Source: Xestospongia bergquistia (Eukaryota; Porifera; Demospongiae; Haplosclerida; Petrosiidae). From it: a stretch of DNA of 64,000 bases. Under the pieces are notes generated by a model. The model ran no database searches. It was not told the origin of the DNA and worked only from the letters and a program-made list of their open reading frames with translations. The position numbers were made by a program, and so were the translations under genes. The DNA lies in assembly GCA_963965975.1 (NCBI GenBank), contig OZ014411.1:22038249-22102248 (forward strand), written 5' to 3'. Numbering within the stretch: the first letter of the stretch is position 1; every line of letters begins with the position of its first letter. Positions 4,930 to 63,882 of this stretch are shown here, in pieces.

Positions 4930-5110
4930 TTAAAGGACATCCTCAATCTCTGAAGTGGTTAAATATGATATCTTATTTGATTATTTTTCTACAGTTACAA
5001 CTGAGAGTATTACAGTAGATCCAAGTCCAACAACATCATCATCCAGCCCAGAACTTTGACTGACCATTGACTAGAATTTGTGGACTTCCTGACAGGAAGT
5101 TCTTATCTTA
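4930..5110 (-). pseudogene. Decayed terminal exon of locus A
   Basis: Reverse-strand sequence here aligns with the 41,249-41,458 terminal exon of locus B: GLDDDVVGLGSTVILS versus GLDDNHGELASTVTVS, then SNKISYLTTSEIEDVL-stop versus FNKIPDLSISEIEYVH-stop. In this copy a TAA interrupts the frame between the two blocks and another stop lies upstream, so the tail is broken. Shared residues on both sides of the stop fix the ancestral frame. It is the natural 3' end of locus A, though transcripts may now end earlier (see the exon at 5376). Confidence 0.6.
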
Positions 5111-5375
5111 GAGTGCACTACATTAACTATACTGGATTGGGAATGCATCTTCGAATTAAATGTACCTAGTAAAGTTTACATATACTAGTAAATTTCTTTA
5201 TCATGAGTAATACCCAAAATGCTTTATGCATTCTTCTTCTATAAATTTATATCTTTAAAAGTTACTAGCTATTAAAAGATCAATACAGCACAGATTGTTA
5301 GGACAATAAATTGAGGACCTATCAAGAACACGTAAACCTAATGTAAATAAACAAAAAACTGTCGTTTTCCAATTG

Positions 5376-5551
5376 TTAGTACATCCTACAATTTCTTGTT
5401 ATGTCGTCACCAGAAGGGTCGAAGAAATGAGCTGAGCATTGACCACAAGTTGATAGTACGCATATAGCATCAGGTATGTTTGGACATTGTGCTGTATCAC
5501 ATGGATTGTCTAGACATTGTACCACTTGAATGTCTTTATTGCACTTTACAC
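5376..5551 (-). CDS. CGxC module exon A7, probable new 3' end
   Basis: Acceptor AG at 5553-5552. The eight cysteines follow the family spacing, with CPNIPDAIC and CGQC. At the usual donor position (after 5387) the sequence is GGATGT instead of GTAAGT, so the first intron base pair is mutated; translation would read through four codons to TAA at 5378-5376. The exon would be 165 bp if spliced. Either locus A now terminates here or the transcript skips this exon. Confidence 0.7.
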
Positions 5552-5639
5552 CTATTGTAACAAATTTGTTAAAGTAAAATAATGATTTTATGAAGTAACT
5601 TTTGTTTTCAGTCAAATTTAACAAAGTTAAAACACTTAC

Positions 5640-5798
5640 CACATTGTTGTAGACAGTTATGTAAAGTTTCAAAGTTGTTTTGGTTACCATCACAACCACC
5701 ATATGTAAATTGCTGACATCTACCCACTGAATTGTTATAATACCATCGAAGAATATTGTTAGTACATGGACCACTCTCAGGTGACAATAAACACAAGT
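5640..5798 (-). CDS. Kunitz domain exon A5 (P1 Thr)
   Basis: 159-bp phase 1-1 exon, acceptor CTGTAG, donor GTAAGT. Six cysteines in BPTI/Kunitz order with GPCTNN around the second Cys, RWYYN, FTYGGC and NNF. The residue after Cys2 (P1 in BPTI numbering) is Thr, not Lys/Arg, so trypsin-type inhibition is unlikely; elastase-like or structural use is possible. Confidence 0.85.
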
Positions 5799-5948
5799 CT
5801 ACAGAAATGAAAGAAATTTATCTGATAAGATTTAAAGTATTACTAATTTTAAACATGTTCATATAAAATAATATAGGCACACAAAATTTGCAAATGACAT
5901 TATAGCCTAGATTTGTAACGGAAAATAATTTGTTTATTAAGTAATTAC

Positions 5949-6240
5949 CTTTTCTTCTCTGAATGTTAATTGGATTTAATTTCATGCCTCCAACATAACT
6001 GTGCCCTGCATTATTTCCCCAGCCATAGATAGAGACAAACAATTTACCATTTGGGTTAGGATGTGTTACTGTATTGGTACCATTAAAAACTGTTAAATAA
6101 CAATATCCATAGATAGAACCATTCAAAGAATAGATTAAAACCATAGTGGATTGTTAAGGACATTGTTTATCATTAAACTCTGGTTAAAATAAGCATCATT
6201 TGGTACAACTACACTGTAATAACTAATACCACTTGACATC
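5949..6240 (-). pseudogene. Truncated, frameshifted IgGFc-binding-like domain (A-Fc4)
   Basis: Only the last third of the domain remains: SYYSVVVPNDAYFNQSL, then a one-base deletion near 6147 (ancestral NPPWVLIY region) gives a stop in the upstream frame, after which HPNPNGKLFVSIYGW and GGMKLNPIN continue in the next frame to a GTAATT donor. The 5' two thirds are missing and homology stops at about 6240 without an acceptor I trust. The domain cannot be made intact from this exon. Confidence 0.8.
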
Positions 6241-6288
6241 AAATAAACATTATATATAATTTTTTTTTAATTCCTAGGTCTTACTTAC

Positions 6289-6366
6289 CTAAAGTAACAG
6301 TTGGTGTAGGTGTAGTTATAGAACCACTAAGTGAAGATGAAAAACTTGCTGGAGCATACGTGCTAC
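6289..6366 (-). CDS. Mucin-like Ser/Thr/Pro exon A-M5, shortened
   Basis: 78 bp, phase 1-1, donor GTAAGT. Reads STYAPASFSSSLSGS and TPTPTVT. The ancestral acceptor upstream appears destroyed (compare 60,011-60,115); an in-frame internal CACAG at 6370-6367 is the only usable acceptor and gives the shortened exon. Confidence 0.5.
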
Positions 6367-6920
6367 CTGTGAAGAGTATATGCAGTTTTAAATTCTTTAT
6401 CATTATAAAAGTTGCTATCAACTGATAACATGATAACTAATCAAAATCATAATGACTAAATATATTACTATTTAACACATAAACCGTTAGAAAGAAACAT
6501 CTATAATTATATAATATAATTTCAGAATTAACAATAAAATTAAATTTTGCCTAGACTAAAATGTAATTGTGTTACCTTAAAAGCAAAACACAAGAAAAAT
6601 GACCTTTCTGACAAGCAATCAAAAACAAATTAGAAGTTAGGAAACATTAAATTTCACAAGAATTTTTAACATTTAGTAGTTTTAATAATTATTAAATATT
6701 ATGATGATTTGCTATAAAGGATGCAAATTTTTGGATATAGCATTGTTTTATTTTTATAAGTATAAAATATGTAGTGCTGCAAAATAAACCAATAAAATTT
6801 ACTTTAATGAGAGGTTTTTGTGGGAGGAAAATGTGACTACCATAATATTTGATTATTCCAAAGCATACATAAATGAAATTGTTTTGTATTGACAAGCAAT
6901 CCAAAAGAAGTTTGTCTTAC
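6367..6920. other. Intron-like AT-rich stretch
   Basis: Separates the SMB exon at 6921 from the mucin-like exon at 6289. No open frame of note and no recognisable domain. Confidence 0.5.
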
Positions 6921-7115
6921 CAGTTGTATCAGTTGGAGTGAGTGAAACAATAGGAGAGTAAGAACCAGGATGACATCCAATATCAGCTATATCACTACAA
7001 CAATCATTCCAAAAGTAACAAAATTGATCACAATAACATCCATTATTGTTACAAGATGGCAACTTAGACCTATCACAACATCCAGAAGTGCTGATATTAA
7101 ATGCCAAACATGAGC
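6921..7115 (-). CDS. SMB-like exon A-S4
   Basis: 195 bp, acceptor TTTTAG, donor GTAAGA, phase 1-1. Ten cysteines: GSC, SGCC, PSC, then CYCDQFC and NDCCSDIADIGC, the CxCx3Cx5CC core of somatomedin B. Ends in a Pro/Thr tail (SPIVSLTPTDTT). Likely a disulphide knot for protein-protein binding in the extracellular space. Confidence 0.75.
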
Positions 7116-7167
7116 CTAAAATTAACACAATATGAACTAATTAATTTCATTGATAATGCTTACTTAC

Positions 7168-7278
7168 CTGGAGTAACAGTTGGTGTAGGTATAACTACAA
7201 AACCACTAAAAGAAGATGAAATACTTGCTGGAAGATGCGTACTACTTGTCAAAGGGTATGGAGTGGTAGATTCTGTGT
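7168..7278 (-). CDS. Mucin-like Ser/Thr/Pro exon A-M4
   Basis: 111 bp, phase 1-1, donor GTAAGT. Reads TESTTPYPLTSSTHLP, a run of Ser, then PTPTVTP. Dense Ser/Thr/Pro suggests an O-glycosylated stalk between SMB-like modules. Confidence 0.7.
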
Positions 7279-7512
7279 CTATATACAAATGGCATTAAAA
7301 TTGAAATCATGTAATAGATCAACTAATCACAGTAATCACATCAGTAACTAAATATGCTACTAATTTACACATCAACTCTTAGGCAGAAACCTTTATTAAT
7401 GAATATATGCAATGATTTTGTGAGAATTAGCAAAATATGTTGTTCAAGATTTATATTTTTTATAAAAACTGCTGTGTCTACTGTATTTCATGATCTTCTA
7501 TTTTCATTTTAC

Positions 7513-7704
7513 CAAGTGTTCCAGTTGGAGTAGGTGTAACTATAGAAGAGGAAGGATGACAACCAATATCAGCTATATCACTACAACAATCATTAAATTT
7601 GTGACAATCTACATCGCAATAGCATTCATCGGTGTAGCCACAAGGTGGTGACTCTGTAAATAAACAACATCCAGAATAGTTGAGATTAAGTGCCAAACAT
7701 GAGC
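7513..7704 (-). CDS. SMB-like exon A-S3
   Basis: 192 bp, phase 1-1, acceptor TTTTAG, donor GTAAAA. Ten cysteines; middle loop is unusual (PPCGYTDECYC, five residues instead of four between Cys4 and Cys5). Ends STPTGTL-like Pro/Thr tail. Confidence 0.75.
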
Positions 7705-7751
7705 CTAAAATTAACATAATGTGTATAAATTAATTTATAGTGCTCACTTAC

Positions 7752-7859
7752 CTATATTAGTTGGCATAGGTGAAACTATTGAGTGCCTTAAAATAGATGA
7801 CAAACTTATAGGGAGATGTGTACTACTTGTCAAAGGGTATGGAGTTTTTGATTCTGTGT
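7752..7859 (-). CDS. Mucin-like Ser/Thr/Pro exon A-M3
   Basis: 108 bp, phase 1-1, acceptor TTTAG, donor GTAAGT. Begins TESKTPYPLTSSTHLP and ends SPMPTNI. Same module as the 7168 exon with substitutions. Confidence 0.65.
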
Positions 7860-7921
7860 CTAAATAAATATAGCATTAAAATCAATAACTAACATTAACT
7901 ACATATGCTACTACTTTACAC

Positions 7922-7922
<1 letters not shown>

Positions 7923-7960
<38 letters not shown>
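7923..7960. repeat. (AT)n microsatellite
   Basis: About 18 AT dinucleotides within an intron of locus A. Confidence 0.95.
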
Positions 7961-7961
<1 letters not shown>

Positions 7962-8103
7962 AATTAGCAATAAACTTAACTAACATTTGAATATACAAAA
8001 ATGTGAATACCAGAAGATGTGAATTTGGAAGCATACATAAGGGAATTAATTATGAGATGATATGCAACATAAAATGATATATATTAATAGTGTTCATTTA
8101 ACT

Positions 8104-8212
8104 GGTGGAACAGTTTTTATCATTATAACTATAAAACCACTTAAAGAAGGTGAAGTACTTGTTGTAAGATATGCATTACTTAACAAAAGGTATGGAGTTT
8201 TAGATTCTGTGT
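8104..8212 (-). pseudogene. Decayed mucin-like exon A-M2b
   Basis: Acceptor ATACAG and the opening TESKTPYLL are kept, but the canonical donor (G|GTAAGT) has become GTTAAA and several Pro/Thr codons are replaced by hydrophobic ones. May still splice at the non-canonical position in phase 0, which would break the frame. Confidence 0.55.
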
Positions 8213-8842
8213 CTGTATAATATGGCATTATAATTGAAATCTTGTAAGATAAATTTATCATAATATCACATCAATCACTAAATATGTAACTACATTATAT
8301 ATGAACTGTTTTGAAGAATCCTTTTTATTACATTTTGTGAGAGTTAGCCAACTAAGTTTTAGACTGAAATATGTCTAACATAAAATATATAATTTGAAGA
8401 TGACATACAATACCTTAAGCAAATAAAACAATAAAATTAAAACGTCATTTTTTTAAAACATTCAGTCTTCATAATGAAACACTGAATTACAAATAGTGGA
8501 TTACTAGTAGCAGTATGCATAGAAAGCTTAAGAATCCAAAAATATAATAATTTGCCAAGTAGACATAATTATTACATACCAAACGGTACAAATTGATAAT
8601 AGGACTTGTTGCAATGTTGACATGCTAGATAATAAAATTAGGAAAAATATTAATTAATAAGTTCCCTTACATTGCTTATTTTAATACAAATTCAAGCTTA
8701 TGATAATTTAATTTTTTTGAACTGGTAGGAGTGTATATTGTTAGATATAGCAGATTGCATTATGACACATTATAAGTATGAATGTGGTGTTGTAAATTAA
8801 TTAATAATATACACTTTGAACAATTATAAAGTAGTCACTTAC
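8213..8842. other. Intron-like stretch
   Basis: AT-rich, no domain or usable open frame seen; lies between the Gly/Ser linker exon at 8843 and the decayed mucin-like exon. Confidence 0.5.
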
Positions 8843-8890
8843 CAGACCCTAAATCAGATATTAGAAGGAGTCCTGAGCCAGATCCAGATC
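8843..8890 (-). CDS. Gly/Ser linker exon A-G2
   Basis: 48 bp, phase 1-1, acceptor TATAG, donor GTAAGT. Reads GSGSGSGLLLISDLGS, a flexible spacer. Very short exons of this kind are easily missed by gene finders. Confidence 0.6.
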
Positions 8891-9043
8891 CTATATAAAA
8901 AATGGTGCATACACATCAATAAAAAGTATAACATTTTATCAAGTTTGTGGGAATGTACATATAGATAGCAGTTTCTTTAATGACACAAAATATGGTGCCA
9001 TAAAACTTGTTAATAATATACACTATTACAAGCAGTCACTTAC

Positions 9044-9100
9044 CATTAAGCCCAGACCCTAAGCCAGATTTTAGGTTAAGTCCTGAGCCAGAACCAAATC
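9044..9100 (-). CDS. Gly/Ser linker exon A-G1
   Basis: 57 bp, phase 1-1, acceptor TAAAG, donor GTAAGT. Reads GFGSGSGLNLKSGLGSG. Duplicate of the 8843 exon; surrounding intron sequence is also duplicated (TTAATAATATACACT at 8801 and 9010). Relics of the same exon are seen near 45,030 in locus B and 60,210 in locus C. Confidence 0.6.
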
Positions 9101-9224
9101 CTTTATAAAAAAATGGTGTATGCACATAAATAAAAAGTACACCAAATTATGTATTGTTTGTTTAATAAAGATAATTGCTTTAATATGTGACTAATGTATT
9201 GCATGTCTTTTGATTTTATCTTAC

Positions 9225-9419
9225 CAGGTGTATCAGTTGGAGTAGGTGAAATTATAGAAGAGGAAGAAGCAGGATGACAACCAATATCAGCTATATCACT
9301 ACAACAATCATTCATATTATAACAATTTTGATCACAATAACATCCATTATTGTTACAAGGTGGTGACAGGAACATTACACAACATCCAGAATAGCTGAGA
9401 TTAAGTGCCAAACATGAAC
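9225..9419 (-). CDS. SMB-like exon A-S2
   Basis: 195 bp, phase 1-1, donor GTAAGA. Cysteine spacing 9-0-7-4-1-3-5-0-7 exactly as the family consensus; CYCDQNC and NDCCSDIADIGC present. Very close in sequence to the next SMB exon upstream (9838-10,032), including flanking introns. Confidence 0.8.
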
Positions 9420-9509
9420 CTAAAATTAACATAATATGAACAAATTATTTAGTTTATAGTGCTAGTTTTAGCATAACATGAACAAATTAACTTAATAGTA
9501 CTTGTTTAC

Positions 9510-9611
9510 CTGGAGTAACAGTTGAAGTAGGTAAAATAATAAAACCACTTGAAGATGAAGAAATTTTTGGAAGATGTATACTACTTGTCAAAGGATATGG
9601 AGTTATAGATT
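9510..9611 (-). CDS. Mucin-like exon A-M2
   Basis: 102 bp, phase 1-1. Reads ESITPYPLTSSIHLP and ends with PTSTVTP before the donor GTAAAC. Confidence 0.65.
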
Positions 9612-9837
9612 CTGAGTATGTATAAAAACAGCGTTAAAACTGAATCATGTAATAGATCAACTCATCACAATATCAGTAACTAAATATGCTACTACTTTAC
9701 ACATTAATTGTTAGGGAGGAAACTTCATTATTATATAATAATTTTGTGAGAATTAGCAGATAACATGTTGTTCAAGATTTAAATTTTTAATAAAAACTGT
9801 GTCTAGTGAATTGCATGATCTTCAATTTTTATTTTAC

Positions 9838-10032
9838 CAAAAGTTCCAGTTGGAGTAGGTGAAATTATAGAAGAGAAAGAAGCAGGATGACAACCGATAT
9901 CAGCTATATCACTACAACAATCATTCAAATTATAACAATTTTGATCACAATAACATCCATTATTGTTACAAGGTGGTGACAGGAACATTACACAACATCC
10001 AGAATAGCTGAGATTAAGTGCCAAACATGAAC
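9838..10032 (-). CDS. SMB-like exon A-S1
   Basis: 195 bp, phase 1-1, acceptor TTTTAG, donor GTAAAA. Same cysteine spacing as A-S2, with which it forms a recent tandem pair of about 613 bp together with its mucin-like exon. Confidence 0.8.
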
Positions 10033-10121
10033 CTAAAATTAACATAATATGAACAATTATTTAGTTTATAGTGCTAGTTTTAGCATAACATGAACAAATT
10101 AACTTAATAGTACTTGTTTAC

Positions 10122-10226
10122 CTGGAGTAACAGTTGAAGTAGGTAAAACCATAAAACCACTTGAAGAAGATGAAGAAATTTTTGGAAGATGTATACTACT
10201 TGTCAAAGGATATGGAGTTATAGATT
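10122..10226 (-). CDS. Mucin-like exon A-M1
   Basis: 105 bp, phase 1-1. Near duplicate of the 9510-9611 exon with one extra Ser codon in the Ser run. Confidence 0.65.
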
Positions 10227-10723: not shown

Positions 10724-10879
10724 CACAATCATTTGTGACTTCATTATTTCCAATAAAATATCTTGGAAAGCAATCTGCACACTCATCAGTATAACAAACT
10801 GCATCAGGATAGTTAGTACAAACACTTCTATTACAAATATCTGAACTACACTTCTTGTTTGGTTGACTAAATGAACAGC
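10724..10879 (-). CDS. CGxC module exon A6
   Basis: 156 bp, phase 1-1, acceptor TGTAG, donor GTAGGT. Subtype that follows P1-Lys Kunitz exons: starts GCSFSQPNKKC, has YPDAVC and ECADC in place of NCGQC, and ends NNEVTNDC. Confidence 0.75.
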
Positions 10880-10979
10880 CTACATTAAAAAAAACAAAAT
10901 TAACCAGATATTAATTTGTTGAATACATGCATGGCAATCATCATAGTTATATAAATATTATTACAATATACAAACTTAC

Positions 10980-11138
10980 CACAAAGATCAATGCACTCAT
11001 TAAGAGTGTGAAATTGATTTCTATTTCCATGACAACCACCATAAATAAATAATTCACATTGACTTGAACTGGTGTTAAAAAACCAACGAGGAAATCTACC
11101 TTTACATGATCCAACTTTAGGAGGTAGATGACAAGTAG
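10980..11138 (-). CDS. Kunitz domain exon A4 (P1 Lys)
   Basis: 159 bp, phase 1-1, acceptor TTCTAG, donor GTAAGT. Six cysteines; reactive-site region VGSCKGRFPRW, then FIYGGCHGN and NQF. Lys follows Cys2 as in BPTI, so this subtype could inhibit trypsin-like proteases; this is inference from family knowledge. Confidence 0.88.
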
Positions 11139-11268: not shown

Positions 11269-12603
11269 CATTGCTTGGAATGTTTATAGGATTTAACTTC
11301 ATGCCGCCAACATAACTGTACCCTGCATAAGTTGTCCAGCCATAAATAGAGACAAACAATTTACCATTTGGGTTAGGATGTGATATTGTATTGGTACCAC
11401 TAAAAGATGTTGAATAGCCATATCCATAGATAGAACCATTTGATGCATATATTGGAACCCATGGTAGATTGATAAGAACATCGTTAATCAATAAACTCTG
11501 GTTAAAGTAAGCATCATTTGGTACAACTACACTGTAATAACTAGTACCACTTGACAGCAATGTAGAGAATTGGATAGAGTGTTCATATTGTTCTATTGGT
11601 GGCACTGTGTGAAGGGAAGGGTCACCAAACTTGCCACCTGCATATTGTGTACTAACACCAATTTGAGCAACATAGATTGGTTGATCAGAGATAATACTAC
11701 AGTATACATTGTTGGTTGTGTAAAACCAATTGGTGTTGTTTTCATCAAATTTGATATATTCATCACTGTAATTTGTACCACAGGTTTTGATTGCATTTGT
11801 TTTATTGTTAGTAGCAATCACTTTGTAACTTTGTCCATTGTTTCGACCTATATGTGGTGATAGCAAAAATGTCTTTCCCCATGTTATTGTTGGTGTGAGT
11901 TGTGTAACAATTGTGTCAGCATCAAAAGTCCCAGCTGGAACTCGAGCAGCTTCGTGTCCACTGATAATTGTAAGTGGACTATCAGATATAATTTTGGTTC
12001 CTGTAAGATCAACATGAGGCTTATAGACAAAGAATGTCTGAAGGGAATGAAGAGTGAAGACAAATGAATGTCCAGCTAAAACAATTATATTAGCAGACGC
12101 ACTCTCCTGGAGATCTGATGGAACAATAATGTCATTGTTTGGAATGATAGTCACATTAGTGTTGTTAAGGCAACCAATAATCATGAACTGACTTGTCTGA
12201 TCACTCCAACCTAATGTAGACACAACATAGTATGTGTATTGAGTTGTTGGTTGTATATGACATGGAAGAGCTATATGGGACATAAAATCTGCATCACTAC
12301 GAAAACTCCATGCAACAACTGATATTGGCTCTGTGTCTAGAGATGAAACTTTAAGACCTTTTCTCCTCCAGGAATAGGTATTATCTAACACTTCATAACT
12401 TGCTGGTATAGCGACTTTACAAGGGTTCTGATAACTAGTTGTACCCATAAATGAGAAGTTGTTATCAAGTGATATGACTTTGAAATTAACAGGATTAATT
12501 TTCATAGTATGAACATACAATGTACGTTCTTTAGATCCATATACATGCTCATAGAATCCCAAAAAGAACTCAGTACTGTATGTACTGATGTCAATCTGTG
12601 GTT
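11269..12603 (-). CDS. IgGFc-binding-like domain exon A-Fc3
   Basis: Single 1335-bp exon (445 codons), phase 1-1, acceptor ATTATAG at 12,605-12,604, donor GTAATT. It matches the N-terminal domain of IgGFc-binding protein (FCGBP) and relatives: opening SKERTLYVHTM, a beta-rich middle with LPCHIQPTTQYTYYVV and MIIGCLNNTNVTIIP, the conserved GHEAARVPAG, then HPNPNGKLFVSIYGW and GGMKLNPIN at the end. Sequons such as NTNVT and NYSDE indicate a glycosylated secreted domain. The Met at 12,562 is internal and not a start, because the frame and the splice acceptor extend further upstream. It carries a tract (12,102-12,140) otherwise seen only in the locus C copy. Confidence 0.88.
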
Positions 12604-13081: not shown

Positions 13082-13240
13082 TGCACTGATCTGTCAAATC
13101 AGTTTCACCAACTATAAACTTTCCTCGACATTGTCCACAGTTATCAACTATACATTGGGCATCAGGAAAATTAGAACAGGTTTGATGATCACAAGGATTA
13201 TTAGGACAATATATTGGTGGTTTATCAGGAGGACATGAAC
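13082..13240 (-). CDS. CGxC module exon A5
   Basis: 159 bp, phase 1-1. Starts GSCPPDKPPIYCPNNPC, has CSNFPDAQC and NCGQC. Subtype that always sits directly before an IgGFc exon (also 15,822 and 48,150). Confidence 0.78.
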
Positions 13241-13291
13241 CTAATAATATTAAGAAGAAAAGAATACAATTACCTTTTTCCATTTACTTAC

Positions 13292-13456
13292 TGCAAATGT
13301 TTGTGACATTGTGACCAGAAGTGTTAAAGAAATGAGCTGAACATTGACCACAACTTGATTGTACACATATAGCATCAGGTATTTTTGGACATATTACCGT
13401 GTCACATGGATTTTCTTGACATTGTACGACTTCAAGGTTCTTCTCACATTTTACAC
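13292..13456 (-). CDS. CGxC module exon A4
   Basis: 165 bp, phase 1-1, acceptor GACAG, donor GTAAGT. Subtype following P1-Thr Kunitz exons: QCQENPCDT, CPKIPDAIC, SCGQCSAHFF, GHNVTNIC. Confidence 0.78.
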
Positions 13457-13559
13457 CTGTCATAATAAAAGTCTTAAATTAAAATAATGCTTACATAATC
13501 AAACTTTTCATCAAATTACTTTTGTATTCAATCAAGTCTAACAAGTCTAATATACTTAC

Positions 13560-13718
13560 TACATTGTTGTAGACAGTTATGTAAAGTATCAAAGTTGTTT
13601 TGGTTACCATCACAACCACCATATGTAAATTGCCCACATCTACCCACAGCATAGTTATAATACCATCGAAGGGTATTGTTAGTACATGGACCACTAACTG
13701 GTAACAACAAACACATAT
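13560..13718 (-). CDS. Kunitz domain exon A3 (P1 Thr)
   Basis: 159 bp, phase 1-1, donor GTAAGT. CLLLPVSGPCTNNTLRWYY, GRCGQFTYGGC, NNFDTLHNC, QQC: six cysteines in Kunitz order. Confidence 0.87.
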
Positions 13719-13789
13719 CTACAGAAAATACAATGAAATTGAATTAATAAGATCTAATTTTGTATTTGTTTTCTTGATCAAGAACTTAC

Positions 13790-13945
13790 CACAAATATTT
13801 GTGACTTCATTATTCTCGTAATAATATCTTGGAGAGCAATCTGAACACTCATCCGGATAACAAACTGCGTCAGGATAGTCAATACAAACACTGCTATCAC
13901 AAATATCTGAACTACATTTGTTAGTTGGTTGACCAAATGAACATC
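13790..13945 (-). CDS. CGxC module exon A3
   Basis: 156 bp, phase 1-1, acceptor CCTAG, donor GTAAGT. CSFGQPTNKC, CIDYPDAVC, ECSDCSPRYYYENNEVTNIC. Cysteine spacing 8-4-4-7-4-2-14. Confidence 0.78.
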
Positions 13946-14008
13946 CTAGGTGAATAACAATTACATACATTTCAAAAAACATATAGCTATAATGTTTATA
14001 TAACTCAC

Positions 14009-14167
14009 CACAAAGATCAATGCATTCATTAAGAGTCCAAAATTGGTTTTTATTTCCATGACAACCACCATAAATGAATAATTCACATTGACTTGAACTG
14101 GTGTTAAAAAACCAACGAGGAAATCTACCTTTACATGATCCAACTTTAGGAGGTAGATGACAAGTAG
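14009..14167 (-). CDS. Kunitz domain exon A2 (P1 Lys)
   Basis: 159 bp, phase 1-1, donor GTGAGT. CHLPPKVGSCKGRFPRWFF, CELFIYGGCHGN, NECIDLC. Confidence 0.88.
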
Positions 14168-14282: not shown

Positions 14283-15620
14283 CATTGCTTCTTGGAATAT
14301 TAATTGGATTTAACTTCATCCCTCCAACATAACTGTACCCTCCATAAGCTGTCCAGCCATAGACAGAAACAAACAATTTACCATTTGGGTTAGGATGTGC
14401 TATTGTATTGGTACCACTAAAAGATGTTGAATAGCCATATCCATAAGCAGAGCCATCTGAACCATATATTAGAACCCATGGTGGATTGATAAAAACATTG
14501 TTGATCAATAAACTCTGATTAAAGTAAACATCATTTGGTACAACCACACTGTAATAACTAGTACCCTTTGACAGCAATGCAGAAAACTGGATGGAGTGTT
14601 CATATTGTTCTATTGGTGGCACTGTATTAAGGGAAGGGTCACCATAGTTACCACCACCATATCGTGTACTAACACCAATTTGAGCAACATAGATTGGTTG
14701 ATTAGATATAATACTACAGTATACATTGTTGGGTGTGTAAAACCAATTAGTGTTGTTTTCATCAAATTTGATCTGTTCATCACTGTAATTTGTACCACAG
14801 GTTTTGATTGCATTTGTTTTATTGTTAGTAGCAATCATTTTGTAACTTTGTCCATTGCTTCGACCTATGTGAGGTGGTAAAAGAAAAGTCTTTCCCCATG
14901 TTATTGTTGGTGTCAGTTGTGTAACAATAGTTTCAGCATCAAAAGTCCCAGCTGGAACTCGGGCAGCTTCATGTCCACTGATGATTGTGAGTGGATTATC
15001 AGATATAATTTTGGTTCCTGTAAGATCAACATGAGGCTTATAGATGAAGAATGTCTGAAGGGAATAAAGAGTGAAGACAAACGAATGTCCAGCTAAAACA
15101 ATTATATTAACAGCAGCACTGTCCTGAGGATCTGATGGAACAGTGATGTCATTGTTTGGAATGATAGTCACATTACTGTTATTAAGACAACCAATAATCA
15201 TGAACTGACTTGTCTGATCACTCCAACCTAATGTAGACACAACATAATATGTGTATTGAGTTGTTGGTTGTTTATGACATGGAAAAGCTATGTAAGACAT
15301 GAAATCTGCTTCATTCCGAAAGCTCCATGCAATAACTGATATTGGCTCTGTGTCTAGAGATGAAACTTTAAGACCCTTTTTCCTCCAGGAATAAGTATGA
15401 TCTAACACTTCGTAACTTGCTGGTATAGTGACTTTATTAGGTTTGTTATAACTAGTTGTACCCATATAAGAGAAATTGCCATCAAGTGATGTGACTTTGA
15501 ATGTAACAGGAGTTATTTTCATAGTATGAACATACAATGTACGTTCTTTAGATCCATGTACATGTTCATAGAAACCCACAAAGAACTCACTGCTCTTTGT
15601 ACTGGGGTAAATTTGTGGCT
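14283..15620 (-). CDS. IgGFc-binding-like domain exon A-Fc2
   Basis: 1338 bp (446 codons), phase 1-1, acceptor TTTTAG, donor GTAACT. Intact across the whole length: SKERTLYVHTM, PTTQYTYYVVSTLGWSD, GHEAARVPAG, HPNPNGKLFVSVYGW, GGMKLNPINIP. Four conserved cysteines (PCHKQ, IGCLNN, KTCGTN, VYCSI). An open frame continues upstream of the acceptor to a Met at 15,657, but the region upstream of the AG is not shared as coding by the other copies. Probably binds a glycoprotein or protein ligand outside the cell, by analogy with FCGBP; the ligand is unknown. Confidence 0.9.
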
Positions 15621-15821: not shown

Positions 15822-15980
15822 TGCACTGATTTGTGATGTCAGTTTCATTGATTACAAACTTTCCCTGACAATGTCCACAGATGTCAAGTACACATTGAGC
15901 ATCAGGAAAATTAGAACACGCTAGACTGTCACAAGGATTATTAGTACAATATTTTGGTGGTTTATCAGGAGGACATGAAC
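15822..15980 (-). CDS. CGxC module exon A2
   Basis: 159 bp, phase 1-1, donor GTGAGT. CPPDKPPKYCTNNPC, CSNFPDAQC, ICGHCQGKF: here Gln of CGQC is His. Directly precedes A-Fc2. Confidence 0.75.
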
Positions 15981-16029
15981 CTAATATAATTTAAGCAGAT
16001 GCTGTCATTTTCAAATTATTAGTACTTAC

Positions 16030-16191
16030 TGCAACTATCTGTGACATTATGACCAGAAGTGTTAAAGAAATGAGCTGAACATTGACCACAATTTGATGAT
16101 ACACATATAGCGTCAGGTAAGTTTGGACATAGTGTTGTTTCACATGGATTGTCTGGACATTGTACTGGTTGAATATCCTTACACTTTTCAC
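16030..16191 (-). CDS. CGxC module exon A1
   Basis: 162 bp, phase 1-1, acceptor AACAG, donor GTAAGT. Cysteine spacing 7-4-4-7-4-2-15 with CPNLPDAIC, NCGQCSAHFF, NVTDSC. Confidence 0.78.
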
Positions 16192-16296
16192 CTGTTTTAA
16201 AACATGACATAATGTTTATATAATTGTTAAAACATTAGATCAAATACAAAAATGATTTAATTTTTCAGTCCAAACTAACAAGGCTAAAACACTCAC

Positions 16297-16455
16297 CACA
16301 TTGTTCTAGACAGTTATGCAAAGTTTCAAAGTTGTTTTGATTACCATCACAACCACCATATGTAAATTGTTGACATCTACCCACAGCATAGTTATAATAC
16401 CATCGAAGGGTATTGTTAGTACATGGACCACTAACTGGTAACAACAAACACATAT
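16297..16455 (-). CDS. Kunitz domain exon A1 (P1 Thr)
   Basis: 159 bp, phase 1-1, donor GTGAGT. Same subtype as 13,560; GPCTNN reactive loop, FTYGGC, NNFETLHNC. Confidence 0.87.
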
Positions 16456-25592: not shown

Positions 25593-25679
<87 letters not shown>

Positions 25680-30740: not shown

Positions 30741-30742
30741 TT

Positions 30743-48618: not shown

Positions 48619-48777
48619 TACATTGTTGTAAACAGTTGTATAAAGTGTTAAAGTTGTTTTGGTTACCATCACAACCACCATATGTAAATTGCTGACATCT
48701 ACCCACAACATAGTTATAATACCATCGAAGGGTATTGTTAGTACATGGACCACTAACTGGTAATAACAAACAAAATT
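48619..48777 (-). CDS. Kunitz domain exon B1 (P1 Thr)
   Basis: 159 bp, phase 1-1, donor GTAAGC. CLLLPVSGPCTNNTLRWYY, FTYGGC, NNFNTLYNC. Confidence 0.87.
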
Positions 48778-48914
48778 CTACAGAAAATGAAATTAAATTG
48801 AATTGATAAGATAAAAAATATTAATTGATATTATGTTAATAGATGTGCATTAAATAGATATCATCATATCCTGGATTTGTAAAGTATAATTTATATTGTT
48901 TGTAAAATAATTAC

Positions 48915-53451: not shown

Positions 53452-54148
53452 CTCTGAGAAGACCTTTCAAAGTTAATAGTAGTTGATGTGGAGCAAATTG
53501 TGTAGCATTTGATATCCATCTATCCACAATGGACAAGAAACTATCAGCTACCTGCCTAGTACATGTAGTTGCAGCTTGAAAAACCTATAGTGATATGTTA
53601 TCTTCACTGATATATATGTATAGATATTATATAGATATTATTGGTTTCAAACCTGTTGAATTGCCTCTTCATTAAGAAAATCATTCAAGACAAAAACTTC
53701 AAAGGCAAGACAAATCAAGTTAGTGTCACTCAAAAGAATATCTGTACAAAATCCATTATCAGTATAACAAGATTGATGACTATTGAAAGCAATTGTTTGC
53801 AATTGACTGCATGTTCCATTTGAGTTGTAGACAGTGCTATTCAAAGTGGCTTTCATAAGGCAACTTTTCACGTTATTAATCCACGTTTGACCCTATATGA
53901 AATTACTAAAAATTAAAGAGAAAACACTAAATACTTACAGCAGTTGTGAAACAACGTTCTTTATTTGTGAAATTGTGGCAGTATCCGTCACCATAGGCAA
54001 GAGGAAATTCATTAGTATCACATTGAAATCTTGGCTCTACACACTGAGTATAGAAGTCACAGTTACCATCATTAGCTAGAGCTGTACAGTCCTGAGCTTT
54101 AACAGCAACTGTCAAAGTGAGTACTACTACAAATACGAGGAGCAGCAT
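53452..54148 (-). CDS. Stanniocalcin-like secreted protein, copy 2 (3 exons)
   Basis: Exons 54,148-53,942 (69 codons), 53,892-53,653 (80 codons) and 53,584-53,452 (133 bp, ends phase 1), with GTAAGT, GTTTGA and GTATAT donors and TATAG acceptors. Signal peptide LLLVFVVVLTLTVAVKAQ. Mature sequence [60 protein letters not shown] keeps every cysteine of copy 1. Exon 2 is one codon shorter than copy 1, exon 3 identical in length. Both copies are open throughout, which suggests purifying selection. Final exon(s) not found. Confidence 0.65.
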
Positions 54149-57169: not shown

Positions 57170-58995
57170 TATATTTCTTATAATAGGTACCACAAGAAAA
57201 AGATTCCACTCGAGTCCTTCACAGAAGACAAGTAAGTTAGCCTTCTTTGGTATATCTTTATCATTGCTTTTACTAATTTACAAATGGTACTTCACTAAAA
57301 AGAACCTCTCAGTAACATTAAGATGCCCTCACTTCACCTAGGTAGCTTTTTTATTCATTTTAGTCTTTGTAGATTCTTATCACTAGGTCTGACACCAATC
57401 AGGCTTCTCTGGCTAAGGTATATGAATGATATAAATATGATCAATCCTTGCAGTAACATATACTTCACTCGGAAGGGAAAGCTTTCAAAATCAGAATATC
57501 CATACCACTTGGATTCTGATTCAGTACTTCATGAGCTTGATCTCACCACTGAAACTAAGGTTGTATGTTATTTAATGTACTTTATTTGTGTAATGTAGTA
57601 TAAAATCCCTCTGAATTTTACACTGTCAACAAGCAACCACTTCAAACCTAATGCTCAGACTTGAAAGTAGTCAAGCTAGCTAGACCCTCCTGATGGGAGG
57701 AGGAGGGTCTAGAAGCTTACTGTCACACTGGAATGAGTGGGATGTGTGGGGCAGTGCAGTGTTCACATAGTGGTTATAATCTGTTATTACAATCTCCAAG
57801 TGGAGTTATATGTGGAAGAAAAAGAAGCTACTTGCAATTCAATTTTGATTAGACTGTCTCAAAGTGCTCATGATTTGTTTAAAGGACAAGCAGAGAAAGG
57901 CTGTCTTAAACGTCTTAGAGAGAAATCATTGAAATATAAGAAATAAAACAATGATGCATACACTCTTTTCTGAGGTATCATCGTTAACAAAAGAAGTGAA
58001 AAATCTAGACACAAAGAAAAGGTGAAACCATATTGTATACTGATGCATATAACATTAATAAATTTACAGGAATGTTATGACAGGACATTTTCTGAAAGTT
58101 CTGATAAACTATTCTTGTCATCACATTGCAATTTCCATTCCAACCCTTACCCCGGCCATCTCTTGTAATAAAAGGGTATGCTATATTTATGACTATATGT
58201 AACTTCAATGTGTTTATTTTTATAGTTCTATGTGTTTTAGGAGACCCATACTGGCTGTAAATGCTAACGAAAATACATCTACTGATGCTTGCCAGTAGTT
58301 AGCACTCAAACTAATGGATATTTTTTACTATAAAAGACTTTCGGGTGATAACTACACTGAAGTGAAGGGGAGGGAACTTCTTAAACAAGATGTTATTGAT
58401 AGTATTTGTAGTAAGTCATACTCTTTAATAAAGTATATCTATTAGCAATTTTCTATAGTGCATATTGATTACAAGTACCCCATGATGAGAAGGAAATTAG
58501 AAACTGAAGAAGTGGGTAGCAATCTTGCAAAAAAACATGATTTCTATATGGCAAACATAAGAGCTATGAAGAGTAAATTTGCAATTAAAAACTGATGATT
58601 GTTTTGGTAATAGTTTTGTAATCAATAATGTTATTTTACTACTTACTGAAAATGTTTATTATATATTAGTCTTAACATAGTGGATGATGTATCAGCTTTT
58701 AGCATGCAGTTCAAATTAATAGCTTTGTCTTTATTCAATAATTTTAATCCAATTATACAGAAAGAAATACTTTTAGTCAAAACATTTTTCTCTTTTCATT
58801 GATCCAGATTCTATTATAGTAAGACAGATCACCTCATATAGTTCGAATATCTCCAGTTACTTGCATCGCGTGCCTATAAGGTTTTTATGCTAAAATATTA
58901 TTTTGGGCGACTGGCTTTAGATGTGTATAATTGCGCTTCAGATTAGACATTCTGGGATATATTCATTGAAGGGCCAGTTTTACTGGATTATGTGT
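57170..58995. repeat. 3'-flank segmental repeat, copy 2
   Basis: Collinear with 1,912-4,460; about 700 bp shorter because of deletions. Lies downstream (gene sense) of locus C. Confidence 0.75.
57737..57946 (+). other. Small ORF conserved in the duplicated flank, copy 2
   Basis: 69 codons; the last 40 correspond to the frame at 2,556-2,677. Substitutions are mixed conservative and radical. No function assigned. Confidence 0.25.
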
Positions 58996-60010
58996 AGGCA
59001 ATACAAAATGCTCTGTGTTGAATTAACATATATACTGTTGATATCAACAGTTTGTGTAAGTCAATCATTACTAAGTGGTATACTGGTTCGATCCTAACTT
59101 TGCGAGTGTATAGATAATACTTAAACATTAAGACTATTCAGGTACATAATTATAGTTATTAAAAAAAATTACAAATCTCATATAATATAGTAAAAGTTGT
59201 TTCCATCTATTTTGAAATTTTATATAATGTACTACAACACATTAATAGTTAAAGATTTATGATACTTTCAATTCAATTTATGATCATACCAAATACTTCA
59301 TTAGATTTTGGAGTATCCCAACAAATAAAGTTATGAGGTCATGTATGTAAGTTTTAGAGTATAGCAACAAATCAATTGTAATTGCAACATGCTTTAGAAA
59401 TTAATTAGTATTAATTAGTCAATAACTAAGAAATTGAGTTACCTGGGTCTGACAATGAGATTGCTTCATATCAAAGATATGTATACTTTAACCTTGACCA
59501 TTCTAGACTAATTGTATAAGGTAGATCTAATATGGTGGCATTGTTTGCTGTTATGGCAAAAATCAACCAGAACCTGTGTATCATCCATCTCTCAAGTATA
59601 GTAAGACATGATAAACCTACAGTTTATTTTCAGATTCTAGTAGTTTTTGATGGAATCATTCACATATAGCTAAATATAAATTAGATCTTAAAATGGTATA
59701 TTATTTTCTAGAATTAATCATTATTGTTTTATTAATTGTCTCTTAGTTCTTTTTAATCTCCTTTGCTGTTAAATTTTATGTGTATATACTGAAATTTCCA
59801 GCATTATTTTTATACAACATAATTACAGTACATTAAAAGAGAATGACGACATAAATGGTCTGTGGTAGTATTGTGATAAATAATGCATAGTAAATTTATC
59901 TCCATCCACAGAAGTTCAATGAGGTTGTTAAATAAACCTCATTGAACCCTTATTGACCCTAAAATAAACATAATATAAACAAAATATTTAAATTCCTAGT
60001 TCTTACTTAC
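58996..60010. other. Stretch without a supported gene
   Basis: The locus C terminal exon would be expected between here and 60 kb, but nothing matching SEIEYVH or the LDDNHGELAS block was found. An inverted repeat ATATACTGTTGATATCAACAGT is at 59,029-59,050 and AACCTCATTGAA is repeated in inverted form at 59,925-59,945. Confidence 0.45.
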
Positions 60011-60115
60011 CTAAAGTAACAGTTGGTGTAGGTGTAGTTATAGAACCACTAAAAGAAGATGAAAAACTTGCTGGAAGATGTGTGCTACCTGTGAAAGGGT
60101 ATGGAATTTTAATTT
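60011..60115 (-). CDS. Mucin-like exon C-M2
   Basis: 105 bp, phase 1-1 if the ATACAG acceptor at 60,117-60,116 is used; donor GTAAGT. IKIPYPFTGSTHLPAS and TPTPTVT. Best relative is 6,289-6,366 in locus A. Confidence 0.6.
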
Positions 60116-60535
60116 CTGTATCCTCGTAAAAATAGCTATCAATTGATAAATGTAACAATATAACTGATCAAAATTATCAGATCAGTGACTATATGTGTTA
60201 CTACCCTTTAGGCTAGACCCTAAAGTCAAATATTGGATTGAATGCTGAGCCGTATGAAATAAATAAGTGTAACAAATTTTGTAAGGCTTATTTCTGTATA
60301 GCAAAATTGACCAAAACTTCATGGCTAATACTTTGCATGAACTTACATATGAACATGATATTACATATGAACTTTTAGGAAAAACCTTCATAATTATATA
60401 ATAACTAAGTCAGAAATAATGAAGAAACTAAAGTTTGGTGAGAGAAAATGTGACTACAATAGTATTTGATTATTAAAAGCAATATAAATGAAATTATTTT
60501 GCAATGACAAGTACTCCAGAATAAAAATCTCTTAC

Positions 60536-60733
60536 TAATTATATAGAATGGAGTTGGTGAAACTATAGGAGAGGAAGAAGAAGCAGGATGACAACCAATA
60601 TCAGCTATATCACTACAACAATCATTCAAAATATGACAGTGTCGATCACAGTTGCATCCATTATTGTTACAAGATGGTGACTGGGACTGTACACAGCAAC
60701 CAGAATAGTTTAGATTAAGTGCCACACATGAAC
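60536..60733 (-). CDS. SMB-like exon C-S4
   Basis: 198 bp, phase 1-1 with acceptor TTTGAG and donor GTAAGA. SGCCVQSQSPSC, CNCDRHC, NDCCSDIADIGC. Its 3' end differs from the other repeats: the shared sequence stops after SPTP and a new donor follows FYII, marking the right edge of the tandem array. Confidence 0.72.
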
Positions 60734-60785
60734 CTCAAATTAACATAATATGAACAAATTTATCTAATTTATAGTCCTCACTTAC

Positions 60786-60995
60786 CTGAAGTAACAGTTG
60801 GTTTATCTGTTGGAGTTGGTGAAACTATAGGAGAGGAAGAAGAAGCAGGATGACAACCAATATCAGCTATATCACTACAACAATCATTCAAAATATGACA
60901 GTGTTGATCACAGTTGCATCCATTATTGTTACAAGATGGTGACTGGGACTGTACACAGCAACCAGAATAGTTTAGATTAAGTGCCACACATGAAC
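60786..60995 (-). CDS. SMB-like exon C-S3
   Basis: 210 bp, phase 1-1, donor GTAAGT. SGCCVQSQSPSC, CNCDQHC, NDCCSDIADIGC, tail SPTPTDKPTVTS. The intron to the next unit is only 52 bp. Confidence 0.78.
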
Positions 60996-61047
60996 CTCAA
61001 ATTAACATAATATGAACAAATTTATCTAATTTATAGTCCTCACTTAC

Positions 61048-61257
61048 CTGAAGTAACAGTTGGTTTATCTGTTGGAGTTGGTGAATGTATAAGAGAAGAA
61101 GAAAAAGCAGGATGACAACCAATATCAGCTATATCACTACAACAATCATTCAAAATATGACAGTGTTGATCACAGTTGCATCCATTATTGTTACAAGATG
61201 GTGACTGGGACTGTACACAGCAACCAGAATAGTTTAGATTAAGTGCCACACATGAAC
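61048..61257 (-). CDS. SMB-like exon C-S2
   Basis: 210 bp, phase 1-1. Same as C-S3 except the tail (AFSSSLIHSPTPT). Confidence 0.78.
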
Positions 61258-61309
61258 CTCAAATTAACATAATATGAACAAATTTATCTAATTTATAGTC
61301 CTCACTTAC

Positions 61310-61519
61310 CTGAAGTAACAGTTGGTTTATCTGTTGGAGTCGGTGAAAGTATAGGAGAGGAAGAAGAAGCAGGATGACAACCAATATCAGCTATATCACT
61401 ACAACAATCATTCAAAATATGACAATTTTTATCACAATAGCATCCATTATTGCTACAAGGTGGTGATAAAAATATTATACAACATCCTGAATAACTGAGA
61501 TTTAGTGCCAAACATGAGC
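61310..61519 (-). CDS. SMB-like exon C-S1 (chimeric)
   Basis: 210 bp, phase 1-1. First half (SGCCIIFLSPPCSNNGC, CYCDKNC) is like B-S1 of locus B; second half (NDCC onward with SPTPTDKPTVTS) is like C-S2 to C-S4. The array therefore grew by recombination within an exon. Confidence 0.78.
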
Positions 61520-61568
61520 CTAAATTGTCATAACATCAAAATTAATTTAATTCATAGTGTTCACTTAC

Positions 61569-61664
61569 CTGGAGTAACAGTTGGTGTAAGTGTAATTATA
61601 GAACGAATTAAAGAAAATGAAGAAGTTGTTGGAAGATGTGTCAAAGTGTATGATGTTTTAAATC
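61569..61664 (-). CDS. Mucin-like exon C-M1
   Basis: 96 bp, phase 1-1, donor GTAAGT. FKTSYTLTHLPTTSS and LTPTVTP. Confidence 0.65.
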
Positions 61665-62030
61665 CTGTGTATATATAAAATGACAATAGAATTGATACAA
61701 TAAATTGATACAATACATATATGATAAACTGATCACAATCGATATACTTGTAATATGCTACTATTAAGCACATGAACTATTAATAACGAGAAACTTGATA
61801 TTTATATTATAATTATGTCAAAATTAGCAATAAACTTAATTTTAACTAGACTAAAATGAACCACCATGAGATGTTATTTTGAAAGCAAACATAGGAAAAT
61901 CATTTTATCATGATATACATAATTGAAATATCATCTAAAATTTTGAATGAGTTGATGTATACACATGGAATTAAGAAGTGTAGCAAATTATACAATGTTT
62001 AATGTTTATTATAAAGAAGTAAGACCTTAC

Positions 62031-62186
62031 CACAATTATGAGTGACTTCATTATTTCCAATAAAATATCTTGGAGAGCAATCTGCACACTCATCAGGATA
62101 ACAAACTGCATCAGGATAGTTAGTACAAACACTTCTATTACAAATATCTGAACTACATTTCTTGTTTGGTTGACCAAATGAACAGC
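62031..62186 (-). CDS. CGxC module exon C1
   Basis: 156 bp, phase 1-1, donor GTAAGG. CSFGQPNKKC, CTNYPDAVC, ECADCSPRYF, NNEVTHNC. Confidence 0.77.
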
Positions 62187-62285
62187 CTACATTAAAATAA
62201 CAAAATTAACCAGATATTAATTTGTTGAATACATGCATAGCAATCATCATAGTTATATAAATATTATTACAATATACAAACTTAC

Positions 62286-62444
62286 CACAAAGATCAATGC
62301 ACTCATTAAGAGTCTGAAATTGATTTCTATTTCCATGACAACCACCATAAATAAATAATTCACAATGACTTGAGCTAGCGTTATAAAACCAACGAGGAAA
62401 TCTACCCTTACATGATCCAACTTTAGGAAGTAGATGACAAGTAG
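62286..62444 (-). CDS. Kunitz domain exon C1 (P1 Lys)
   Basis: 159 bp, phase 1-1. VGSCKGRFPRWFY reactive region, FIYGGCHGN, NECIDLC. Essentially the same as B2 Kunitz at 46,017. Confidence 0.88.
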
Positions 62445-62556
62445 CTAGACAATTATATAATATTTATTTCTTATTCCATAAAGTAAACATATGTAAAAAA
62501 TTAAATCATGTCATGTATTTGATAACCAATATATTCATTGCTTGCAAATTAATTAC

Positions 62557-63882
62557 CTTTACTTCTTGGAATGTTAATTGGATTTAACTTCATGCCTCCA
62601 ACATAACTGTACCCTCCATAAGTTGTCCAGCCATAAACAGAGACACACAATTTACCATTTGGGTTAGGATGTGATATTGTATTGGTACCACTAAAAGATG
62701 TTGAATAGCCATATCCATAAATTGAACCATCTGAAGCATATATTAGAACCCATGGTGGATTGGTAAGAATATTGTTGATCAATAAAGTCTGGTTAAAGTA
62801 AGCATCATTTGGTACAACCACACTGTAATAACTAGCACTATGTGAAAGTAATGCGGAGAATTGAGTGGAATGTTCATATTGTTCTATTGGTGGCACTGTG
62901 TTAAGAGAAGGGTCACCAAAATTACCACCATCATACCTTGTACTAACACCAATTTGAGCAACATAGATTGGTTGATCAGAAATAAAACTACAGTATACAT
63001 TGTTGTTTGTGTAAAACCATTTGGTGTTGTTTTCATTAAATTTGATATATTCAACAGTTTTATTTGTACCACAGGTTTTGACAGCATTTGTTTTATTGTT
63101 AGTAGCAATCACTTTGTAACTTTGTCCATTGTTTCGACCCATTTGAGGTGATAACAGAAATGTTTTCCCCCAAATTATTGTTGGTGTCAGTTGTGTAACA
63201 ATAGGGTCAACATCATATTTATCAGCTGGAACTCGGGCAGCTTCATGTCCACTGATAATTGTTAGTGGACTGTCTGATATAATTTTGGTTCCAGTAAGAT
63301 CAACACAAGGCTTAAAAACAAAAAATGTTTGAAGTGAATGAAGAATAAAATTGAAGGACTGTCCAGATGAAACAATTATATTATCAGCAGCACTCTCCTG
63401 GAGATCTGATGGAACAATAATGTCATTGTTTGGAATGATAGTCACATTACTGTTATTAAGGCAACCAATAATCATGAACTGACTTGTCTGATCACACAAG
63501 CCTAATGTAGACACGACATAGTACATGTATTGAGTTGTTGGTTGTTTATGACATGGAAGAGCTAGATAAGACATGAAATCTGAATGAGTACGATAGCTCC
63601 ATGCAATAACTGATATTGACTCTGAATCTAGAGAGTAAACTTTAAGACCCTTTCTCCTCCAGGAATAGCTATTATCTAACACTTCATAACTTGCTGGTAT
63701 GGTGACTTTATGAGGATTGTGATAACTAGCTTTACCCATATATGAGAAGTTGTTATCAAGTGATATGACTTTGAATGTAACAAGAGTTTTTTTCATAGTA
63801 TGAACATACAATATACGTTCTTTAGATCCATGTACATGTTCAAAGAATCCCACAATGAACTCATTACTGTATGTGCTAGGGT
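62557..63882 (-). CDS. IgGFc-binding-like domain exon C-Fc1
   Basis: 1326 bp (442 codons), phase 1-1, acceptor TTATAG, donor GTAATT. Intact: SKERILYVHTM, PTTQYMYYVVSTLGLCD, GHEAARVPADKYD, HPNPNGKLCVSVYGW (Phe to Cys, an extra cysteine). Differs from B-Fc2 at roughly 20 residues by eye; a short block (IIVPSDLQES) instead matches A-Fc3. Confidence 0.88.

Follow-up and report, generated by a model that had tools for sequence, protein, structure and literature searches.

Three tandem loci of modular exons

The array of repeated exons described here lies in a 64,000-nt window of the genome of the sponge Xestospongia bergquistia (contig OZ014411.1, forward-strand positions 22,038,249 to 22,102,248; "the window" is this whole stretch, with a mean GC content of 31.6%, taken over 16 rows, and no N). 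Profile searches with seeds from the window find the IgGFc_binding domain (PF17517, here IgGFc) in six full copies and one broken copy, eight Kunitz domains, eleven copies of a module with eight cysteines (C8) and 14 copies of a Somatomedin B-like (SMB-like) module with ten, all on the minus strand. These modules form three tandem loci, A, B and C (Table 1), and we put about even confidence in their being paralogous animal genes, at least three in number, whose products are secreted multi-module proteins. A chance origin is disfavoured, because the exons are long and open and their phase is uniform.

The Kunitz exons fall into two subtypes (I and II) and the C8 exons into three (a, b and c), and these are combined in a regular grammar. 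Locus A reads IgGFc, Kunitz-II, C8a, C8b in its first unit, IgGFc, Kunitz-I, C8c, Kunitz-II, C8a, C8b in its second and IgGFc, Kunitz-I, C8c in its third, followed by four SMB-like exons and a relic unit of an IgGFc fragment, Kunitz-II, C8a and a decayed C8b. Locus B has one unit of IgGFc, Kunitz-II, C8a, C8b and one of IgGFc, Kunitz-I, C8c, then six SMB-like exons, while the visible part of locus C consists of IgGFc, Kunitz-I, C8c and four SMB-like exons. The initial annotation had described tandem mosaic genes on the minus strand with a shared grammar and differing copy numbers; the profile search and the exon map bear this out, but its list lacked the probable 5' ends of A and B and the fourth, broken unit of A at 6254-5266. 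The IgGFc exon at 63882 is probably an internal exon of locus C, as its unit resembles B unit 2.

Table 1. Positions of the modules and associated features, in window coordinates.
Feature	Exons or parts	Extent	Strand	Remarks
Locus A, probable 5' end	signal peptide and Cys-rich domain: 26205-25996, 25949-25707, 25559-25427	25427..26205	-	195 codons; phase-1 donor AAAG/GTATAT
A unit 1, IgGFc_binding (A1)		16592..17929	-	profile search, splice check
A unit 1, other modules	Kunitz-II 16455-16297; C8a 16191-16030; C8b 15980-15822	15822..16455	-	
A unit 2, IgGFc_binding (A2)		14283..15620	-	
A unit 2, other modules	Kunitz-I 14167-14009; C8c 13945-13790; Kunitz-II 13718-13560; C8a 13456-13292; C8b 13240-13082	13082..14167	-	
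A unit 3, IgGFc_binding (A3)		11269..12603	-	
A unit 3, other modules	Kunitz-I 11138-10980; C8c 10879-10724	10724..11138	-	
A tail	SMB-like 10032-9838, 9419-9225, 7704-7513, 7115-6921; candidate mucin-like 10226-10122, 9611-9510, 7859-7752, 7278-7168, 6366-6289	6289..10226	-	
A relic unit	IgGFc fragment 6254-5944; Kunitz-II 5798-5640; C8a 5551-5388; C8b 5337-5266	5266..6254	-	IgGFc frame-broken; Kunitz-II open; C8a donorless; C8b decayed
Locus B, probable 5' end	54148-53939, 53892-53653, 53584-53452	53452..54148	-	phase-1 donor AGAG/GTATAT; homologous to A 5' end
B unit 1	IgGFc 50252-48915; Kunitz-II 48777-48619; C8a 48528-48364; C8b 48308-48150	48150..50252	-	
B unit 2	IgGFc 47612-46287; Kunitz-I 46175-46017; C8c 45917-45762	45762..47612	-	
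B tail	mucin-like 45458-45363; SMB-like 45313-45116, 44545-44345, 44288-44091, 42980-42819, 42574-42380, 40213-40019	40019..45458	-	
B tail, weak mucin-like candidates	43625-43554; 43255-43160; one near 41793		-	
Locus C, visible unit	IgGFc 63882-62557; Kunitz-I 62444-62286; C8c 62186-62031	62031..63882	-	counterpart of B unit 2
C tail	mucin-like 61664-61569; SMB-like 61519-61310, 61257-61048, 60995-60786, 60733-60536; candidate mucin-like 60163-60011	59939..61664	-	
Non-coding-looking stretch		57170..58994		pieces 74-75% like pieces of 1914-4469

Identity of the modules

The module assignments had been made from motifs, and profile searches place the IgGFc and Kunitz domains above their Pfam cut-offs. 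The two full IgGFc exons scanned, out of six, score 139.9 and 139.8 bits against a cut-off of 25.6 (E about 1e-40), and in an alignment of all six the first copy shares 80-86% identity with each of the others. They are 442-446 codons long with 4-7 cysteines, and a sequence search of solved structures with an IgGFc exon gave nothing significant. All eight Kunitz domains have six cysteines, and the two copies scanned against PF00014 score 73.3 and 69.1 bits (cut-off 21; E 1.8e-20 and 3.7e-19). Each of the four Kunitz-I copies reads G-S-C-K-G, i.e., Lys-Gly after the second cysteine; this lysine we take, by analogy with BPTI, to occupy the P1 place in the loop of trypsin-type inhibitors. All four Kunitz-II copies instead have Thr-Asn there (a P-C-T-N loop). 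The one Kunitz-I copy compared with solved structures matched SmCI (4bd9), boophilin, bikunin and TFPI with E-values from 9e-21 to 3e-43, SmCI scoring best.

Eight cysteines are present in every C8 copy (all eleven were aligned). The 'CGxC' signature by which the initial annotation recognized this module applies to subtypes a and b but not to subtype c, which reads C[AS]DC. None of the eleven copies matches any Pfam family, and a sequence search of solved structures found nothing significant. The best AlphaFold2 model reached a pLDDT (predicted local distance difference test) of 82.5, the five models spreading from 45.1 to 82.5, and a Foldseek search with the AlphaFold2 model returned no match with E below 8.9.

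The SMB-like modules all have ten cysteines (14/14). Somatomedin_B (PF01033) is listed for nine of 12 copies, in every case below the cut-off of 23.1 bits (best E 0.06; first copy 13.7 bits). In the alignment, which holds 12 of the 14 copies because 40213 and 60995 were omitted as near-duplicates, the core C-x-C-x3-C-x5-CC is invariant. A profile search of the PDB listed four matches, none significant: two NLRP9 entries, which we think are due to chance, vitronectin (E 0.44) and EndoU (E 0.74). Vitronectin and two stretches of EndoU align with the modules on a C-x-C-x3-C-x5-C-C-x-D core, whereas the number of cysteines (ten, where Somatomedin B has eight), the first cysteine spacings and the sub-threshold scores set them apart. 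By their sequences they are probably relatives of Somatomedin B rather than members of the family.

The mucin-like exons are short and rich in serine, threonine and proline (S/T/P): the six sampled have 25-36 residues, 51-64% of them S/T/P, and the tails of the SMB-like modules have 6-22 residues with 44-71%. The modelled cores contain 138 (A) and 119 (B) cysteines, and 40 (A), 31 (B) and 13 (C) N-glycosylation sequons.

Splice phase and gene models

Each exon carries one module. When phase-1 sites are chosen, all 38 exons considered have AG/GT borders and lengths divisible by three. That first choice was biased in considering phase-1 sites only, and it was repeated with an untrained score open to every phase, for the 38 modules that remain when the broken IgGFc copy and the C8 at 5551 are set aside. 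The unforced search returned phase 1 at every one of the 38 donors and at 33 of the acceptors. Of the five exceptions, four are SMB-like exons in which an AG precedes the module core by four bases; splicing there would remove the first conserved cysteine. The introns are mostly short: 22 of the 36 gaps between listed neighbouring modules measure 49-137 bp, and the longer ones include gaps that contain mucin-like exons, which that list omits. Splicing the modules gives stop-free models of 20 exons and 2322 aa for A and 16 exons and 1731 aa for B, or 2490 and 1819 residues if the candidate mucin-like exons are added.

Ends of the genes

The probable 5' ends of A and B are built alike from three exons joined in phase 0 and ending in a phase-1 donor, and the similarity between them stops 8 bases past this donor. 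In the domain they encode, the two copies differ by 0.315 synonymous (dS) and 0.134 non-synonymous (dN) substitutions per site. The cysteine-rich part has no Pfam match even with the E-value limit set at 10, and nothing significant in the PDB; a stanniocalcin-like domain, suspected at first, was dropped for lack of any such Pfam match. Upstream of these exons the two loci show patchy 70-79% similarity (26853-28370 and 54879-56122), perhaps shared regulatory regions.

We infer that the 5' exons are spliced to the first IgGFc exon, which resumes phase 1, on the basis of phase and conservation; the gap between them is 7.5 kb in A and 3.2 kb in B. A scan of this gap for alternative start exons found nothing in B and one candidate of 11 codons in A (21803-21770). 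A further start-exon candidate, a hydrophobic one, lies in A after unit 2 and before unit 3 (12884-12773), and none was listed in the matching interval of B. The putative long intron of A also holds, on the opposite strand, an open reading frame with a MADF DNA-binding domain (20813-21331, plus strand, E 3e-10), which may be a gene or transposon-derived. Locus C most likely continues past base 64000, with its 5' part outside the window, because its unit resembles B unit 2 (97.6% identity) more than unit 1 (88%).

At the other end, the splice scores of the A mucin-like candidates at 10226 and 9611 are poor (2.3). For C, reading by eye suggests a possible short last exon, with an acceptor after the mucin-like exon and a short frame to a TGA at 59939, in sequence unique in the window. 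If the last SMB-like exon of C is instead read through its donor (60733-60405, minus strand), a hydrophobic stretch (Kyte-Doolittle score, KD, 2.0 over 19 residues) precedes a stop; the counterpart in A is not hydrophobic (0.66). A terminal-exon scan of the tails found no other clearly hydrophobic end.

Duplication, gain and loss of units

Comparison of the copies shows that units have been gained and lost whole. Units A1 and A2 are 94% identical over 104 bp and then 99% over 76 bp, on either side of a 399-bp gap running from within the Kunitz-I exon to a point shortly upstream of Kunitz-II, so that a relic of Kunitz-I is left; the composition of A1 is thus explained by a 399-bp deletion relative to A2. 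In C the SMB-like exons recur at a spacing of 262 bp. The identity of the C unit with B unit 2 extends over 2.1 kb including introns, and divergence is spread as expected of a recent copy (introns 0-2.7%, most exons 0-2.3%, SMB-like 8.1%), until at about 45.13/61.33 kb identity falls to 74-80%. For every IgGFc copy except B2 and C2 the closest partner shifts between alignment windows, the pattern sought as a sign of gene conversion, which blurs the exact histories of the units.

The SMB-like exons of B at 40213 and 42574 lie in 99%-identical stretches beside retroelement fragments, and an assembly error at this duplicate is possible. The retroelement pieces extend over 30.9-41.2 kb, with RNase H and integrase reading frames on the plus strand (37299-37943 and 38299-39075) and a 683-bp piece present twice (38920-39601 and 40466-41148, 99%); reading frames near 31.2-32.6 kb also look retroelement-like by eye. 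The non-coding-looking stretch at 57170-58994 probably belongs to the duplicated unit, as does its relative at 1914-4469, because the two are located downstream of C and A respectively; no match is listed after B, where the retroelement sits. No clear conserved coding frame underlies this similarity, the matches being scattered over many frames. Between C and B there is also a Kunitz-like fragment of 28 residues, the first half of the domain only (56986-57069), which is the only plus-strand module match listed. Rfam and tRNA scans gave no matches, and no relatives turned up in viral contigs, whether the query was the IgGFc alignment, the integrase reading frame or a Kunitz-C8 reading frame.

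Selection on the modules

The array is under purifying selection. Between units A1 and B1 the three introns differ by 32-41% and the four exons by 9-18%. Relaxation across all copies, which would have counted against the initial annotation, is not what we see: in 14 of 15 IgGFc pairs dN/dS is 0.25-0.38 at dS 0.19-0.33. The remaining pair, B2/C2, has a dS of 0.036 and a dN/dS of 0.58 (10 synonymous and 21 non-synonymous changes). For the smaller modules we kept pairs with dS between 0.02 and 1.2 (11 of 28 for Kunitz, 24 of 45 for C8 excluding the copy at 5551, and 90 of 91 for SMB-like), with median dN/dS of 0.31, 0.62 and 0.60 respectively. With these medians and with single pairs reaching 1.04 (C8) and 1.26 (SMB-like), the C8 and SMB-like modules are less constrained. 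In the IgGFc alignment 141 of 445 sites vary, at 4-12 per 25 columns, without a hypervariable block.

Relation to known proteins

FCGBP, known from vertebrate mucus, is among the closest comparisons, and the array bears on the role of its IgGFc domain in animals that lack antibodies. One report describes the H domain of FCGBP as about 450 aa long, low in cysteine and required for Fc binding (PMC9354016), close in size and cysteine content to the IgGFc exon; FCGBP likewise has its IgGFc domain N-terminal in a large secreted cysteine-rich protein. In the array, unlike FCGBP, a modelled gene holds as many as three copies of the domain. No GDPH sites occur in the modelled cores and no vWD or TIL domain in the 10 + 8 proteins scanned, a set that does not include every short reading frame. 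Judged by its domains, the array is therefore neither an FCGBP orthologue, which would carry vWD-C8-TIL with GDPH, nor a gel-forming mucin with vWD and long proline/threonine/serine tracts, as only its short linkers are S/T/P-rich.

The Kunitz-I loop is nearly identical to that of SmCI domain 3 ('CKGSFPR'). SmCI, boophilin, bikunin and TFPI consist of Kunitz domains and are for the most part small, whereas here Kunitz is one exon within a large mosaic. Bacterial relatives of IgGFc_binding were found in Polyangia and Chloroherpeton metagenome-assembled genomes (23 and 6 matches, against none in 14 control genomes), with local identity of 41-44% over 46-48 residues; the 23 Polyangia matches amount to an expansion in one bacterial genome. 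A review likewise has the N-terminal domain of FCGBP shared with bacteria (PMC9505182). In the sponge Halichondria panicea, a figure legend lists IgGFc-binding and somatomedin B-like among pattern-recognition receptor domains, but the receptors treated in the main text belong to SRCR, GPCR, NLR, C-type lectin and TIR families, and Kunitz goes unmentioned there (PMC8242945). Among the matches listed in open-licence literature we found no description of this combination of modules.

Interpretation and alternatives

Taken together, the Kunitz-I loop, the S/T/P-rich linkers, the sequons and the likeness to the FCGBP H domain favour a secreted, FCGBP-like mucus or matrix protein with trypsin-type inhibitor modules, a reading to which we give roughly even odds of being right. 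Each locus would then produce, we infer, one transcript. The gene would start with the signal peptide and cysteine-rich domain, continue with units of IgGFc, Kunitz and C8 modules (three in A, two in B and at least one in C) and end in an SMB-like tail with probably O-glycosylated Ser/Thr/Pro-rich linkers. With exons in phase 1 at both borders and mostly short introns, unequal recombination or deletion could add or remove modules while the frame is kept; comparison of the copies reveals one deletion and one tandem exon repeat. By analogy with FCGBP, the product may be released into mucus or a matrix layer. There, scaffolding or ligand binding might fall to the repeated IgGFc domains and the disulfide modules, and, by analogy with known inhibitors, the Kunitz-I domains might block trypsin-like proteases of microbes or of the animal itself. 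IgG binding is not implied. The secreted mucin-like protein of the initial annotation survives in this form: probably secreted, with signal-peptide-like exons in A and B, mucin-like in its linkers, equipped with Kunitz inhibitor modules and under selective constraint. The further ideas of that annotation, a part in epithelial defence or self/non-self recognition, restriction to one lineage and differences among haplotypes, are conjectures.

Several observations weigh against this interpretation. The AlphaFold2 model of the IgGFc exon was unusable (pLDDT 33.7), and Kunitz-II is not a typical trypsin inhibitor. After its IgGFc domain FCGBP has vWD-C8-TIL repeats, where the array has Kunitz, eight-cysteine and SMB-like modules. 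The median dN/dS of the C8 and SMB-like modules is 0.62 and 0.60, and the newest pair, B2/C2, shows little sign of constraint. The 3' ends of the loci are uncertain, and the last SMB-like exon of C, if unspliced, is a possible membrane anchor. Given the long junction, the 5' domain may belong to a gene apart, and a further gene, starting from the candidate at 12884-12773, may comprise unit 3 of A and the SMB-like tail.

The last two points lead to an alternative that we think rather unlikely, namely that the array comprises more genes, either with the 5' cysteine-rich domain in one gene and the IgGFc modules starting at an unrecognized exon of another, or with A unit 3 starting its own gene. 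The 5' gaps are indeed long compared with those between most modules, a MADF-domain reading frame lies inside the A interval on the opposite strand, and there are two start-exon candidates; yet neither candidate has a listed counterpart in B, both 5' copies end in a phase-1 donor, and the same order is repeated in tandem. It is also possible, if rather unlikely, that these are structural matrix or adhesive proteins, for example of a skeleton or cuticle, in which the Kunitz and disulfide modules would serve just to protect the matrix or cross-link it. The many cysteines of the modelled cores would suit such a role, and abalone shell matrix includes IgGFc-binding-like and Kunitz proteins, although in the available text of that study these modules are on different proteins (PMC6003135); nor does anything in the array link it to mineral or fibre.

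A recognition or allorecognition family, in which variable numbers of IgGFc and SMB-like modules give each gene or haplotype different binding surfaces, strikes us as improbable. The copy-number differences among loci, the deletion of an exon unit, the recent multiplication of SMB-like exons at 262-bp spacing, the raised dN/dS of B2/C2 and the possible membrane-anchored form of C would all be in keeping with it, but the variable sites of IgGFc are spread across the exon, dN/dS is well under 1 in the other 14 pairs, and no other tail ends in a clearly hydrophobic stretch. An extension of this idea, which we hold to be very improbable, is that phase-1 units of an ancient IgGFc domain, shared with bacteria, turn over fast enough for recognition proteins, secreted or, for C, membrane-anchored, to differ from one individual to the next; if true, module shuffling would provide individualized mucosal or self/non-self recognition in an invertebrate. 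Finally, the similarity of B and C could be an artefact of two haplotypes assembled in a row, since in some marine invertebrates alleles can differ as much as this pair does (97.6% identity including introns). This too seems quite improbable: the drop in identity and the differing number and spacing of SMB-like exons are hardly expected of adjoining haplotypes, and A is far more diverged from B.

Favouring as we do a secreted mucus or matrix protein with inhibitors, we see the array as a new combination of mostly known modules within the exon-shuffled, secreted, cysteine-rich protein families, one in which exchangeable exons repeatedly bring the IgGFc domain together with protease inhibitors and SMB-like modules. 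The eight-cysteine and 5' cysteine-rich domains could become new domain families. Should the proteins have no part in mucus or immunity, they would be one more exon-shuffled secreted family; if they are mucus or immune components, the cluster would be a compact model of barrier proteins built by exon shuffling.

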